The notes below the pieces were generated by a model. It was given only the letters and a program-made list of their open reading frames with translations. It searched no databases and had not been told where the DNA came from. Position numbers and translations under genes: made by a program. A stretch of DNA of 33,113 bases from Faecalibacterium sp. An121. Lineage in GTDB: Bacteria > Bacillota > Clostridia > Oscillospirales > Ruminococcaceae. The stretch is taken from assembly GCF_002160915.1 (NCBI RefSeq), contig NZ_NFLM01000026.1:1-33113 (forward strand), written 5' to 3'. Of the stretch, positions 23,023-33,113 are shown one piece after another (within the stretch, counting starts at the first letter, position 1; each line of letters opens with the position of its first letter).

Positions 23023-23079
23023 GGTGAAAGTAAAAATATTTTTACTATTTCTCTGCGAAAACTGAATAAAGTGTCCCCA

Positions 23080-23110
23080 AAGCGCACGCGAAAGCGTGCG
23101 CTTTTCGTTT
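23080..23110 (+). terminator. Terminator in cassette A (end of ABC transporter)
   Basis: AAGCGCACGC (23080-23089) and GCGTGCGCTT (23094-23103) form a perfect 10-bp stem with a GAAA tetraloop, followed by TTCGTTT. Confidence 0.85.
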
Positions 23111-23191
23111 GCCTACAGATCCCCTCCTCCGAAGTTAGATAATGCAAACTAAAGAAAATAAAGAAAAATGGGAAAAATTTGAAATTGGGTC

Positions 23192-23216
23192 TTGACACGG
23201 GGGGGTATGTTATGAT
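23192..23216 (+). promoter_or_regulatory. Promoter A with G-tract spacer, upstream of lipoprotein
   Basis: A perfect TTGACA (23192-23197) precedes C plus seven G and then TATGT, followed by TATGAT (23211-23216) with an upstream TGT (extended -10). Spacing is only 13 bp, versus 15 in copy B. No better -10 is found at 16-18 bp, so the extended -10 is the probable core. Confidence 0.65.
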
Positions 23217-23223
23217 AGGCACA

Positions 23224-23245
23224 CAAAGGAAAGGACCTTCCTTTG
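23224..23245 (+). other. 5'-end stem-loop of the lipoprotein mRNA
   Basis: CAAAGGAA (23224-23231) pairs perfectly with TTCCTTTG (23238-23245) around AGGACC. It begins about 7 nt after the -10, so it would sit at the extreme mRNA 5' end and could protect the message from decay. The same hairpin is at 33075-33096. Confidence 0.5.
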
Positions 23246-23297
23246 AACCTGTTTTGGGTCTCTATCTTTTATACACCATAAGGAGGAAAAATTCATT

Positions 23298-23948
23298 ATG
23301 AAACTCAAGAAGATTGCTTCTCTGGCGCTGGCCGGCATCATGGCCGTCAGCATGCTGGCTGGCTGCAATGGCTCTTCTTCCAGCACCCCTACCGAGCCTG
23401 AGACTCCCGCTACTTCTAACTATGCAGCTACCTTGCAGGATGCTCTCGAGGGTGATGCACGCCGCATTGTGACTGAGGCTGTTGCCAACTCTGAGCTGGA
23501 TTCCGCTCTGCAGAGCGCTGTGGATACCTATTACAATGACTTGCAGCTCCGGTATGCTAATGATACTGATGTTGAATTCCTGAAGTATGATAAAGCGGCA
23601 GGTGGAGACATCAACTCTGCTGTTGTGAAGGCGTTGAGCGCTGAAGATACTATTGAGGCTCTTGACAACAATAATGATAAAGACACTGTTGCGGTTGAGG
23701 TGTACGCTGTGAGCGCTAGTGTGAGCAACACCAAGGCTCTGGAGCTGGTTGCTGATAAAATTACCAATACCATTAGCGGCAATGTTAATAATGGAAAATT
23801 CACTGAGAAGTCTAGTAACGGTGAGTATGATTACAGCTACGACATCGCTGCAAGCATTGTCACCAAGAACTACTCGACCGTGGGTGATATGAGCGTGGGC
23901 GTGAAGTACATTGCTATCGCTGTGACCCAGCACGTTACCCGCGTCTGA
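23298..23948 (+). CDS. Secreted lipoprotein, family not recognised
   Basis: The 216-residue protein starts MKLKKIASLALAGIMAVSM and has a lipobox LAGC with Cys23, then a Ser/Thr/Pro/Glu-rich linker (about 25-41). The rest is a soluble, acidic domain ending in IAIAVTQHVTRV. The ribosome binding site AAGGAGGAAAA is very strong. Codon choice (GCT, GTT, ACT, TCT, GAT) differs clearly from the C/G-ending codons of neighbours, which may mean very high expression or acquisition. The C-terminal part (YDYSYDI...VKYIAIAVTQ) resembles that of the protein at 24527 (YDYRYVV...VYYVVVTVTR). Function is unknown. Its promoter cassette is repeated at the window end. Confidence 0.85.
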   Translation: MKLKKIASLALAGIMAVSMLAGCNGSSSSTPTEPETPATSNYAATLQDALEGDARRIVTEAVANSELDSALQSAVDTYYNDLQLRYANDTDVEFLKYDKAAGGDINSAVVKALSAEDTIEALDNNNDKDTVAVEVYAVSASVSNTKALELVADKITNTISGNVNNGKFTEKSSNGEYDYSYDIAASIVTKNYSTVGDMSVGVKYIAIAVTQHVTRV

Positions 23949-24145
23949 GTTAACTTACTTATAACACCCCGGGGCACCATACCGGGAGATGATATAAGGG
24001 GCGAGCAGGTGCCAGAGACCACCTGCGCGCTCGGGTAAAACACCCATCCGATGTGGCGGCAAAGAGGAATAAAACCAATATTCCTTCTGTTGTTGATCGC
24101 ACCAAAACAAAAGAACTTTTGCGTCACGAAAGATAGGGTCCCTCT
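23949..24145 (+). other. Structured 3' untranslated region of the lipoprotein gene
   Basis: Between the stop and the terminator are several hairpins: CGAGCAGGTG...CACCTGCGCGCTCG (24002-24033), AGGAATA/TATTCCT (24066-24086) and CAAAAG-AA-CTTTTG (about 24112-24125). No ORF with a ribosome binding site is seen in it. It may be a stabilising 3' UTR or contain a small RNA. Confidence 0.4.
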
Positions 24146-24183
24146 GCGGGGGCCGGCTTTGCAGCCGGCCCCCGCATTGTTCT
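24146..24183 (+). terminator. Strong terminator hairpin
   Basis: GCGGGGGCCGGCT (24146-24158) and AGCCGGCCCCCGC (24163-24175) form a perfect 13-bp stem with loop TTGC, followed by ATTGTTCT. It ends only 17-25 nt before the next ATG. Confidence 0.8.
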
Positions 24184-24199
24184 ACAAGGGAATGATAGG

Positions 24200-24439
24200 A
24201 TGAAGGAAAGTTTACTGGATCGACTGGCGGCCCGGATGGGCTGCACATATCTGTCTGACCTGCATTGGCTGGACAGGATACAAAAAGCGAAACTGGCAAG
24301 TGTGGTATGGCACATAGAACCGGAAGACGCCACCCTGTTTGAATGGAATGACGCATTGCTTTACCTGGCAGGCGATCCACCGGCAGAGACCGCCGGGGCC
24401 GCACGGGAAAAGCTGCTGGACTATCTGTCGGATCGATAA
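24200..24439 (+). CDS. Small hypothetical protein (79 aa)
   Basis: The frame starts at ATG 24200 behind AAGGGAATGATAGG and encodes a soluble, mostly helical 79-residue protein beginning MKESLLDRLAARMGC, with a central EWNDALLYLAG segment and a charged C-terminus. There is no signal peptide, transmembrane helix or known motif. It sits directly behind a strong terminator and has no recognisable promoter of its own, so expression would depend on read-through. It could be a regulator or simply a weakly expressed gene. The secreted repeat protein follows 87 nt later. Confidence 0.55.
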   Translation: MKESLLDRLAARMGCTYLSDLHWLDRIQKAKLASVVWHIEPEDATLFEWNDALLYLAGDPPAETAGAAREKLLDYLSDR

Positions 24440-24526
24440 GGCCGGCGCAGCCGCACATCTGCCCGCCGCCCTGCATATACATGGGTCAGACCAAACCGGA
24501 GCCATTGACCGCAAGGAGGAAGACCC

Positions 24527-25696
24527 ATGTTCTGTGAAAAAATCGTTTCGCTGGCGCTGTGCGCTGCTGCCGCGGTCAGCTGTTGTTTTTGCCCGTGGCT
24601 GGGCGGCGGGGCGGGGGATGCCGGCAGTTCCAGCAGCTCTGGCAGTTCCAGTTCCGGAGTGACGGACGATCCCGGCAACCCCAATATCCCTTTGGTTCCG
24701 GGCGGCGGAGCATCCAGCACGCCGACTGCACCCGAGACCCCGGGCGGCGGCGCGTCCAGCGCACCGACCACGCCCGAGACCCCGGGCGGCGGAGCGTCCA
24801 GTACACCGACTGCACCCGAAACCCCGGGCGGCGGCGCATCCAGCACACCGACCACACCCGAGACACCGGGCGGCGGAGCGTCCAGCACGCCGACCACACC
24901 CGAGACCCCAGGCGGCGGCGCGTCCAGCACGCCGACTGCACCCGAAACCCCGGGCGGCGGAGCATCCAGCGCACCGACCACGCCCGAGACCCCGGGCGGC
25001 GGCGCATCCAGCACGCCGACCACACCCGAGACCCCGGGCGGCGGAGCGTCCAGTACGCCGACCACACCCGAGACCCCGGGCGGCGGTGCATCCAGTACGC
25101 CGACTGCACCCGATACTCCGCAAAGGCCGGACATTGACTTTACGGGTATGCTGGAGGATGACCTGCCGCCCGCAGCCAAGAAGGACTTCATCACCTTTGA
25201 GGACAGCATCCAGGATGAAGACGCCCTCCAGGACGCACTGAACAGTCTGGTCGCGGAGGCCACCGGCTCGATCCAGGAAGGGCAGATCACCCCCATTTAC
25301 AACACGTCGCCGGGGTATGGGCAGATGGTCAAGGACTTCGTCACTGCGCGGGGGATCAAAAATACCAGCCTCAAACGGGGCAACACCCCCGACGGAATGT
25401 ACTACTATTTCATCAATAACCCCACCCTGGACGCAGCCCAGCCCACCAAGTGCGCCGTCCTGTACGCGGCTCCCGGTTCGATGGGGCTGGAAGAGGCGAT
25501 CCGAAGGGTAGCCGCCCAGGTGGATCCGGTGCTGGAAAAGCTGCCCAGCAGCAACATGGGCGGCAGTCCGCGCTACGACTACCGCTATGTGGTCTCGACC
25601 AGCGCCGCAGGCCGCTCCCTGACCAATGAGGACGGGACGGCCATACCGGTCTATTATGTTGTGGTAACGGTCACCCGCATCCCCACCGCCGCATGA
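24527..25696 (+). CDS. Secreted repeat protein with ten 14-residue P/G/S/T repeats
   Basis: The 389-residue protein has an N-terminal export signal (MFCEKIVSLALCAAAAVSCC); Cys19 or Cys20 could be lipidated, but the lipobox is atypical. A Ser/Gly linker leads into ten perfect-length units of PGGGASSTPTAPET type (24698-25117), then a soluble domain (about 202-389). That domain ends YDYRYVV...IPVYYVVVTVTR, resembling the C-terminus of the lipoprotein at 23298. An Ala/Glu-rich helical segment (SMGLEEAIRRVAAQV) also aligns with SNTKALELVADKI there. The repeats probably form an extended stalk that displays the domain. The ribosome binding site AAGGAGGA is strong. A bidirectional terminator follows. 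Confidence 0.8.
   Translation: MFCEKIVSLALCAAAAVSCCFCPWLGGGAGDAGSSSSSGSSSSGVTDDPGNPNIPLVPGGGASSTPTAPETPGGGASSAPTTPETPGGGASSTPTAPETPGGGASSTPTTPETPGGGASSTPTTPETPGGGASSTPTAPETPGGGASSAPTTPETPGGGASSTPTTPETPGGGASSTPTTPETPGGGASSTPTAPDTPQRPDIDFTGMLEDDLPPAAKKDFITFEDSIQDEDALQDALNSLVAEATGSIQEGQITPIYNTSPGYGQMVKDFVTARGIKNTSLKRGNTPDGMYYYFINNPTLDAAQPTKCAVLYAAPGSMGLEEAIRRVAAQVDPVLEKLPSSNMGGSPRYDYRYVVSTSAAGRSLTNEDGTAIPVYYVVVTVTRIPTAA
24698..25117 (+). repeat. Ten tandem 42-bp coding repeats
   Basis: Ten consecutive 42-bp units each encode 14 residues. They vary mainly at two positions (Thr/Ala and Ala/Thr): the units run TA, AT, TA, TT, TT, TA, AT, TT, TT, TA. The last unit has Asp instead of Glu. Nucleotide identity between units is very high, with scattered third-base changes. 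Confidence 0.95.
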
Positions 25697-31130: not shown

Positions 31131-32876
31131 ATGGCACTGGATGCCGCAACCCTGGCACTGACAGCGGCCGAACTGGGCCGCACGGTGACCGACGCTAAAA
31201 TTGCAAAGATCTTTGAGCCTACCCGGGACGAGCTGGTCATCACCCTGCGCACCCGCGCCGACACATACAGTTTGCTGCTGTCGGCGCGCAGCGGGTCGGC
31301 CCGGGTCTGCCTGACCGACGAGAGTTTTGAGAATCCCGAGACCCCGCCCTCCTTCTGCATGCTGATGCGCAAGCATCTGACCGGCGGACGGCTGGTGGCG
31401 GTGCGGATGGAGCCGGGAGACCGGATCGTCTACTTTGATTTTCTGTGCACCAACGAGATGGGGGACCTGGTGACCAACACCCTGTGCGCCGAACTGATGG
31501 GCCGCTATTCCAACCTGGTGCTGGTGCAGAACGGCAGGATCATTGACGCCCTCAAGCGGGTGGACTTTGAGGACAGCGAGATCCGGCAGCTGCTGCCGGG
31601 GCTGGCCTATACCGTTCCGCCCAAGCCGGCCCGCCCTGACTTTCTGGCGGCCAGCGCGGCCTCGATCGTAGCCGCCGCCTGCCAGAAAGACCTGCCGGTG
31701 GCCGCCGCCCTCAGCCGGACGGTGGCGGGGGTGGGCCCGGTGGTCTGCCGGGAAGCCGCCTGGCGGGCCTTTGGCGGGGAAGAAAAGATCGCCTGTGAGC
31801 TGGACGAGGAGGGCAAGCGCCGTCTGCTGGAGGCCATCGACGGTCTGAAAGCCGAACACGCCGCCGGCGGTGAACCGTGCAGCGTGGCCAGCCCCGAGGG
31901 CAAGCCCATCGAGTTCACTTTCTTCCGGCCCGGGCAGTATGGCGCGGGGTATGCCATCCGCACCTGGCCTTCCTTCTGCCAGATGCTGGAGGGTTACTAT
32001 GCCGAGAAGGACCGGGCCGAGCGGCTGCGCACCAAGAGCAAGGAGCTTCACAAGGCGGTGCACAATATGTATGAGCGGGCGGTCCGCAAACAGGCCGCCC
32101 GCAAGGAGGAGCTGGCCGCCAGCGAAAAAAGCGAACAGCTGCGCCTGTACGGCGAGTTGCTGTCGGCCAACCTCTACCAGGCCCAAAAGGGAATGGAGAG
32201 CATCACGGTGCCCAACTGGTACGACGAGGGCAAGCCGGTGACCATCCCTCTGGACCTGCGCTATACCCCCAGCCAGAACGCCCAGAATTTCTTTAAGGCG
32301 TACAAGAAAAAGCAGACCGCCGCCCGGATGCTGGTGGACCTGCTGGCGGAAGGGGAGCGGGAGATCGCCTATCTGGAAACGGTGCTCTATGAAGTGGAGA
32401 GCGCTCCCGGCGAGGCCGCCCTGAATGAGATCCGGGCCGAGCTGAAAAGCCAGGGCTATCTGAAATACTACAAGCCACGGGACCGGAAGCAGAAGCCCGC
32501 CGATTTTTACCGCTACATCTCCTCGGATGGGTTCGAGATCCTGGTGGGCCGCAACAACCTGCAAAACGAGCGTCTGACCCTGCACACGGCCCGGGGCAAG
32601 GATCTGTGGTTCCACACCAAGAACGCCCCCGGCAGCCACACGGTGGTGCTGAGCGGCGGCCGGGATATTCCTGACCGCACCCGCCAGGAGGCCGCCGAGC
32701 TGGCGGTGCTCCATTCCAGTCAGGCCAAGGGGGTCAAGGTGGCGGTGGACTACACAGAGGTCCGGAACATCCGCAAGACCGCTGGCCTCAAGCCGGGCAT
32801 GGTCCTCTACGATAAGTATGAGACGGCCTATATCACCCCCGACCCCGACCTGGCCGCCCGCCTGCGCAAAAAGTGA
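31131..32876 (+). CDS. rqcH: RqcH / NFACT-family ribosome quality control protein
   Basis: RqcH binds stalled 50S subunits and recruits alanyl-tRNA to add C-terminal alanine tails that mark nascent chains for ClpXP-type degradation. The 581-residue protein has an NFACT-N domain starting MALDAATLALTAAEL with the essential Asp97-Arg98 pair in EPGDRIVYF, exactly at the positions known from B. subtilis. It continues with a helix-hairpin-helix region, a coiled coil (about 285-430) and the NFACT-R domain (GFEILVGRNNLQNERL, DLWFHTKNAPGSHTVV). Older annotation calls this family fibronectin-binding protein. The ribosome binding site GAGAGGGGG lies 6-7 nt upstream of the ATG. Confidence 0.94.
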   Translation: MALDAATLALTAAELGRTVTDAKIAKIFEPTRDELVITLRTRADTYSLLLSARSGSARVCLTDESFENPETPPSFCMLMRKHLTGGRLVAVRMEPGDRIVYFDFLCTNEMGDLVTNTLCAELMGRYSNLVLVQNGRIIDALKRVDFEDSEIRQLLPGLAYTVPPKPARPDFLAASAASIVAAACQKDLPVAAALSRTVAGVGPVVCREAAWRAFGGEEKIACELDEEGKRRLLEAIDGLKAEHAAGGEPCSVASPEGKPIEFTFFRPGQYGAGYAIRTWPSFCQMLEGYYAEKDRAERLRTKSKELHKAVHNMYERAVRKQAARKEELAASEKSEQLRLYGELLSANLYQAQKGMESITVPNWYDEGKPVTIPLDLRYTPSQNAQNFFKAYKKKQTAARMLVDLLAEGEREIAYLETVLYEVESAPGEAALNEIRAELKSQGYLKYYKPRDRKQKPADFYRYISSDGFEILVGRNNLQNERLTLHTARGKDLWFHTKNAPGSHTVVLSGGRDIPDRTRQEAAELAVLHSSQAKGVKVAVDYTEVRNIRKTAGLKPGMVLYDKYETAYITPDPDLAARLRKK

Positions 32877-32940
32877 TTTGTGCCGGATGCTAAAAATATT
32901 TTTACCATTTCCCTGTGTGAACTGAATAAAGCGTCCCCAG

Positions 32941-32974
32941 AGCGCCCCGCCGATGCGGGGTGCTTTTTCTTTTG
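32941..32974 (+). terminator. Terminator in cassette B (end of rqcH)
   Basis: AGCGCCCCGC (32941-32950) pairs with GCGGGGTGCT (32955-32964) with one G-U pair and a CGAT loop, followed by TTTTCTTTTG. The stem sequence differs from copy A but its length does not. Confidence 0.85.
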
Positions 32975-33040
32975 CTTCCAAAGTTAGAATATGAAAACTA
33001 AAGAAAATAAAGAAAAAAAGGGAAAATTTGAAATTGGGTC

Positions 33041-33067
33041 TTGACACCGGGGGGGGTATGTTATGAT
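33041..33067 (+). promoter_or_regulatory. Promoter B with longer G-tract spacer
   Basis: TTGACA (33041-33046) is followed by CC plus eight G and TATGT, then TATGAT (33062-33067), giving a 15-bp spacer. The 5'-end hairpin CAAAGGAA/TTCCTTTG follows at 33075-33096. Confidence 0.65.
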
Positions 33068-33113
33068 AGGCACACAAAGGAAAGGACCTTCCTTTGAACC
33101 TGTTTTGGGTCTC

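Follow-up and report, generated by a model that had tools for sequence, protein, structure and literature searches.

Dispersed lipoprotein cassettes with poly-G promoter tracts and a conserved 3′ RNA in Faecalibacterium sp. An121: candidates for phase variation

The window, i.e. the whole stretch of 33,113 nucleotides that was analysed, represents the complete contig C19 of the draft genome of Faecalibacterium sp. An121 (2.71 Mb, 62 contigs). Two blocks 10 kb apart, copy A (23031–23262) and copy B (32891–33113), contain the same parts in the same order: a TAAAAATATTTTTA extension, a hairpin with T-run, an A-rich stretch, TTGACA, one or two C residues, a poly-G tract, TATGTTATGAT and a leader (Table 1). 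The two copies are homologous over their whole length, with 197 identities in 238 columns, while 200 shuffled versions of copy B showed a mean of 48% and a maximum of 53% identity to copy A. Within the last 75 nt the copies share 73 of 77 columns, and the differences are confined to the C/poly-G tract. These data confirm a sequence-only reading of the window, which had described two such blocks with near-identical ends, the first followed by a strong ribosome binding site and a lipoprotein gene and the second meeting the contig end ahead of any start codon.

Table 1 Positions of cassette features of copies A and B in the window
Feature	Position	Strand	Remark
Copy A upstream region: TAAAAATATTTTTA extension and terminator-like hairpin with T-run	23031–23112	+	Extension common only to copies A, B and C22
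Copy A A-rich block (GTTAGA ... AACTAAAGAAAATAAAGAAAAA ... GGGTC), common to cassettes	23131–23191	+	5′ block alignment
Copy A predicted −35, TTGACA	23192–23197	+	
Copy A spacer, 13 nt: C, G7, TATGT	23198–23210	+	TG of TATG = extended −10
Copy A predicted −10, TATGAT	23211–23216	+	
Copy A leader hairpin CAAAGGAA-AGGACC-TTCCTTTG	23224–23245	+	Near predicted transcript start
Copy A ribosome binding site, AAGGAGG	23280–23286	+	
Copy A lipoprotein, 216 aa, lipobox LAGC, Cys23	23298–23948	+	
Copy A conserved 3′ structured RNA	23958–24181	+	Terminator-like hairpin 24145–24176 at end
Copy B upstream region: same TAAAAATATTTTTA extension and terminator-like hairpin as copy A	32891–32973	+	
Copy B A-rich block	32980–33040	+	
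Copy B predicted −35, TTGACA	33041–33046	+	
Copy B spacer, 15 nt: CC, G8, TATGT	33047–33061	+	
Copy B predicted −10, TATGAT	33062–33067	+	
Copy B leader to contig end	33068–33113	+	By synteny resumes on contig C8

Terminator-like hairpins of the GCGC..GCGCTTTT type (23079–23112 and 32942–32973 in the window) precede many cassettes and differ in stem sequence. A neighbouring gene (24527–25696) encodes a protein with a long tandem repeat of the PETPGGGASS type, whose C-terminal part is related to the lipoprotein family (profile match at 25088–25690, E 3.5e-19). Inspection of the sequence upstream of this gene revealed no cassette promoter.

When compared with the genome, the last 84 nt of the window matched at 24 places, in 23 cases with 98–100% identity over 79–85 bases. 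The remaining match (94% over 50 bases) is a truncated remnant at C22:1402 with 6 Gs in its promoter and a leader that breaks off. Copy B is therefore no isolated two-site duplication, and the dispersed family under one promoter module proposed from the window is present at 24 sites, 23 of which bear the promoter. The block common to the copies begins near GTTAGA, about 60 nt upstream of the −35 element, and its upstream extent differs between copies. Terminator, promoter and leader hold together as one cassette only in part: the promoter-leader block is common, but the hairpin varies by site, and of the 24 copies only three, namely A, B and the truncated one on C22, have the TAAAAATATTTTTA extension. 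Read from 5′ to 3′, a unit begins with roughly 60 nt rich in A, followed by TTGACA, one or two C residues, the poly-G tract, TATG and TATGAT; the leader hairpin, AAGGAGG, the signal peptide, the mature protein and a 3′ RNA come next.

Of the 124 contig ends, 36 lie within cassette units (18 in the left side and 18 in the right side of a unit). Together with five units lying wholly inside contigs these halves yield 23 units, which equals the number of promoters counted directly. The window stops at 33113 because the repeat unit breaks the assembly there, and for the same reason such cassettes are easily missed in draft genomes.

The last base of the window corresponds to base 23262 of copy A and the first base of contig C8 to base 23263, the next one of the cassette. 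Since the break in contig C21 falls at the same position of the cassette, the break point alone is not diagnostic of the partner of copy B, whereas synteny is. Contig C8 opens with the leader, a ribosome binding site and a gene for a lipoprotein of 218 aa (36–692; the lipobox Cys is residue 23), followed by the 3′ RNA (704–928) and the conserved upstream region of a gene at C8:1537, which we take from its protein sequence to be rpsJ (S10). The gene upstream of copy B (581 aa, 31131–32876) is represented by a single match in each of 30 of the 31 genus genomes. It is followed by rpsJ within 1.5 kb in 21 of 29 relatives' loci and by something else in five; two loci are cut short and one lacks the anchor. 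From this synteny we infer that C19 is joined to C8, and the paralogue expected beyond the contig edge was found there. The leader was found at this locus in none of the 28 relatives with the anchor. The site filled in An121 is uninterrupted in the 21 loci with rpsJ next.

All 16 inspected An121 genes that follow an intact leader encode lipoproteins with a lipobox and Cys at position 23. Fifteen of them are open to normal length, while the gene at C8:57046 (L017, G000:C8:57164) has an in-frame TGA at codon 100. Family members comprise roughly 210–240 aa and share the signal peptide. The mature proteins within An121 have a mean identity of about 26%, and one profile covers all of them (the alignment comprises the window protein and 38 of 39 family proteins, leaving out L155). 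A shared signal peptide combined with a diverged mature part is also seen among the paralogues of variable surface lipoprotein families.

The AlphaFold model of the copy A lipoprotein (mean pLDDT 78.7) shows helices and long C-terminal strands, and a Foldseek comparison with the PDB gave no match at E ≤ 0.001. Profile search of PDB sequences returned nine hits at E ≤ 1, the best of them 28-residue stretches of designed helical proteins (E 7.6e-5). Among 39 family members Pfam recognised five families, each in a single member, and NCBIfam 13 families with at most six members each (best E 3.4e-4), several being lipoprotein families. The NCBIfam model NF058595 (lipo-invert) matched two of the 39 members at E ≤ 0.01 and residues 7–40 of the window protein with 19.1 bits, compared to a cut-off of 37. 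Thus, no known fold or family pointing to a function emerged from the fold, Pfam and NCBIfam searches.

The block following the copy A lipoprotein gene (23958–24181) has 27 matches in An121 and relatives after cassette genes in other species. This 3′ RNA of about 224 nt ends in a GC-rich hairpin and a short T-run. From 51 blocks picked by a conserved core motif, 39 were analysed by RNAalifold (nine An121 copies, L109, L120 and L091, a divergent block with a degraded terminator hairpin, were omitted), which predicted 68 pairs, 26 of which show substitutions in both partners. When this structure was imposed on the alignment, 97.5% of cells paired compared to 91.2% in shuffles, and none of 500 shuffles reached any of five measures, although the structure was derived from the same alignment and is favoured by it. 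Pairing fell to 40–45% when the partner was slid by 1–3 columns. Covariation is present in helices 1, 2 and 8 (7, 10 and 8 double-change pairs) and, with one pair, in helix 5. The core (GTGRCGACAAA ... TGTTGTTGATCGCACC ... TTTTGCGTCACGAAAGATAGGGTCCC) is near-invariant, and its pairs consequently have no support from covariation.

A search of the whole window with Rfam 15 at the gathering threshold revealed only a tRNA (1752–1824). Within 23930–24540, five weak matches were obtained at E ≤ 5, all around the terminator hairpin (best 20.5 bits, 35 required), and the leader gave three matches at E ≤ 1, all far under the gathering scores. Neither element could thus be assigned to a known RNA. The covariation gives good support to a structured 3′ RNA, for which Rfam has no family; in the simplest reading it would act within the 3′ UTR to protect or process the mRNA. 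One may object that it is merely an elaborate transcription terminator, since it ends like one and the same hairpin was matched elsewhere (in G091, see below). Nevertheless, two covarying hairpins and a long near-invariant core lie ahead of the terminator hairpin and a terminator needs neither, which makes this explanation quite improbable.

A covariance model detected the 3′ RNA in 10 of 31 genus genomes, and the leader block was found in the same ten. Among 297 family genomes, searched with stricter filters and seven candidates scored each, three matched the 3′ RNA: An121, G016 of the same genus and G091. The G091 match (E 4e-6) turned out on inspection to be a plain terminator hairpin and was rejected, leaving nothing credible outside the genus in these 297 genomes. 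Scanning genome contigs, which may omit the records of An121 itself, for the leader pattern yielded 55 stretches. Of these, 54 are filed under Faecalibacterium (An122, gallistercoris, faecigallinarum, intestinigallinarum, faecipullorum and uncultured bins), the remaining one under Gemmiger excrementavium. The Gemmiger contig (L153) is about 98% identical to the C26 region of An121 and probably represents a misbinned piece of the same species. The protein profile reached further, to 27 of 31 genus genomes at E ≤ 1e-5; beyond the ten, the best E was 6.8e-16 and the matches mostly covered the N-terminal half. In the sets searched the family is limited to part of one genus. Judged from species and sample names, the hosts are probably mainly chickens, and An121 itself is probably a bacterium of the chicken gut.

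The poly-G tract lies between the predicted −35 and −10 elements: TTGACA, C or CC, poly-G, TATGT and TATGAT follow each other in 23 of the 24 block matches. Its length varies among the 23 promoters of An121 (G7 twice, G8 in 13 and G9 in eight cases), giving spacers of 13–16 nt. The 151 nt after the tract, which contain the leader, the ribosome binding site and most codons of the signal peptide, are invariant in the eight copies readable to 175 nt, and the 15 shorter copies (52–99 nt) agree as far as they reach. Fifteen of the 23 tracts lie close to contig ends, where repeat collapse could blur the lengths, but the eight internal copies vary in length too. The leader itself folds no better than shuffled sequences (z −0.47), and the base of its hairpin stem is C-G here and G-C in other species.

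Poly-G length also varies in the multi-copy relatives G003, G004, G006, G010, G016 and G025 (spacers 12–17 nt), and G8 runs occur in every multi-copy species examined. In the low-copy species G021, G022 and G023, on the other hand, all five promoters are without a run of at least seven Gs and have a 17-nt spacer. A promoter with a fixed 17-nt spacer may therefore be ancestral, with the slippage-prone tract gained later and then spread.

Based on these data we consider it probable that the cassettes encode phase-variable lipoproteins and that poly-G slippage in the promoter spacer switches each copy independently. The tract would gain or lose Gs by slipped-strand mispairing, the distance between −35 and −10 would move through about 13–17 nt, and transcription of each cassette would go up or down on its own. 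Cells of one population would then display different sets of lipoproteins. Such phase and antigenic variation might serve to evade host antibody or phage, or to choose a niche.

The spacer lengths do not suit the simplest form of such a switch. A 17-nt spacer is found in none of the 23 An121 promoters and in 3 of 46 sites of multi-copy relatives (42 with 70 nt upstream and four shorter ones, which may duplicate others), so that a rule by which only 17 nt means ON would leave nearly all copies off. It is possible that spacing has a graded effect or that 16 nt suffice. Furthermore, all promoters tallied across species have a TGn extended −10, as the search pattern demanded, and this element may soften the dependence on spacing. 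The differences in tract length are differences between paralogues; the sole comparison at one locus (C26:4008 vs. L153) shows G8 in both, which counts against phase variation.

An alternative would be an ordinary family expansion with shared constitutive promoters, in which all copies are expressed together from the extended −10 and the tract differences are neutral slippage noise. Poly-G tracts drift easily, and this reading would account for the extended −10 at the counted sites and for the lack of the 17-nt spacer in An121. We regard it as unlikely, however, because all multi-copy species examined have a G8 run while the three low-copy species lack it, the mature domains are strongly diverged and the 5′ blocks cluster by genome.

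Antigen switching of such a kind is best known from pathogens and mycoplasmas. In Mycoplasma gallisepticum, which is associated with birds, the large vlhA/pMGA lipoprotein family carries a GAA repeat upstream of each promoter; the An121 cassettes resemble it in family size, in having an upstream repeat for each member and in the bird host, and differ in the position of the repeat. To our knowledge no 3′ RNA accompanies vlhA/pMGA. A poly-G tract between −35 and −10 is reported to affect transcription of the surface-protein genes porA of Neisseria meningitidis and tp0126 of Treponema pallidum, with 17 nt being optimal (PMC7864442). The position of the tract is the same here, but those are individual genes, whereas An121, a gut commensal, has 23 paralogous predicted promoters that would drive lipoprotein genes and are linked to a 3′ RNA. 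Changes of promoter repeat length that switch lipoprotein or surface-protein genes are described for Vlp of Mycoplasma hyorhinis, a gene family with a poly-A repeat, and for Vmm of M. mycoides, with a dinucleotide repeat in the promoter spacer (PMC10502178). Compared to these, the Faecalibacterium cassettes are dispersed over the genome, use poly-G instead of poly-A and have the additional 3′ RNA. In another gut commensal, Bifidobacterium breve, the sortase-pilus on the cell surface is controlled by slippage of a G-tract during replication (PMC9187656); this tract is intragenic, while that of the cassettes lies in the promoter.

Among the papers that searches of the PMC library, which omits most subscription papers, brought up, none describes the cassette family and none is, by its title, about the 3′ RNA. 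The proposed switch belongs to a known kind; within the reach of our searches, no description exists of its scale, of its occurrence in this genus or of the RNA attached to it. The sequence-only reading had understated the system; the poly-G differences, the 3′ RNA and the genus limits lay outside its view. Many studies deal with Faecalibacterium as a beneficial genus of the gut. If the switch operates as proposed, about two dozen independently switchable lipoproteins would provide a single isolate with very many possible surfaces, which would be relevant to host antibodies and phages.

Nearest neighbours were compared for 37 cassettes from seven genomes, selected from 59 for having 110 nt upstream and more than 150 aa (ties broken by list order). 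Of the 37 5′ blocks, 24 had their nearest neighbour within their own genome (shuffles: mean 6.3, maximum 18) compared to 9 of 37 mature proteins, and the 3′ RNA was intermediate (16 of 37, shuffle maximum 16). Orthologue pairs fit this picture only in part. Among six measurable pairs, the two with An122 have a clearly lower 5′ identity (0.82–0.83) than paralogues (means 0.89 and above). In the other four, from close species, it is about that of paralogues, which counts against the phase-variation reading. The simplest reading would be that the mature diversity is older than the species and that the 5′ block has been homogenised, as gene conversion would do.

A single locus may reveal an exchange between cassettes. 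Positions 218–946 of L153 (DXBO01000012.1) and the corresponding cassette on C26 (L011) are about 98% identical in flanking sequence. Their leaders agree completely as far as the ATG and their 3′ RNAs almost completely, while the lipoprotein in between differs. This suggests that the whole frame was exchanged between leader and 3′ RNA; alternatively, L153 may be a chimera of metagenome assembly.

The units could accordingly act as recombination cassettes, with the 5′ block and the 3′ RNA as homology arms between which frames are swapped by gene conversion, the poly-G tract being secondary. This possibility, which is compatible with phase variation, fits the clustering of 5′ blocks but not mature proteins by genome, as well as the different lipoproteins of L153 and C26. 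We consider it doubtful as the principal explanation: the exchange is a single case from a metagenome assembly that may be chimeric at repeats, the L153 contig terminates inside the 3′ RNA and its far flank lies beyond the end, and the 3′ RNA is less clearly clustered by genome. Both processes might also be combined in a two-layer variation of the surface, with a poly-G spacer switch for each cassette, a 5′ block/3′ RNA swap module that exchanges frames between loci and strains, and an RNA with a specific role in expression or exchange. Such a system would be new to a commensal; we think it rather unlikely.

Some cassette sites are apparently shared with relatives and others are uninterrupted there. 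Besides the copy B site, the latter applies to the site of the C20:5831 cassette, which is uninterrupted in An122. The uninterrupted sites and the TTGTGCC found on either side of the copy B insert would be in line with a mobile element that carries the lipoprotein gene and depends on a transposase in trans. The junctions at these two sites, the only ones read, nevertheless disagree: no duplication was seen at C20:5831, where the right side has an extra small ORF, and a clean transposon was therefore rejected. Moreover, the upstream extents differ between copies, a unit has space for one gene only, and several sites appear shared with relatives. The 3′ block matched no phage or plasmid sequence, which argues against such a source for the 3′ RNA. 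Mobility of this kind is hence very unlikely.

The small ORF after the C20:5831 cassette (L012) starts with ATGAAACACACAGGCGGG and separates the 3′ RNA from the conserved right flank; the An122 site does not have it. At G000:C30:8–1741 (L044, L231) two lipoprotein genes are arranged in tandem, the first without a 3′ RNA directly after it and the second with a diverged leader. Finally, a decayed cassette (L254, G000:C4:54989–55212) retains its A-rich block and 3′ RNA together with a truncated lipoprotein frame but has lost promoter and signal peptide.
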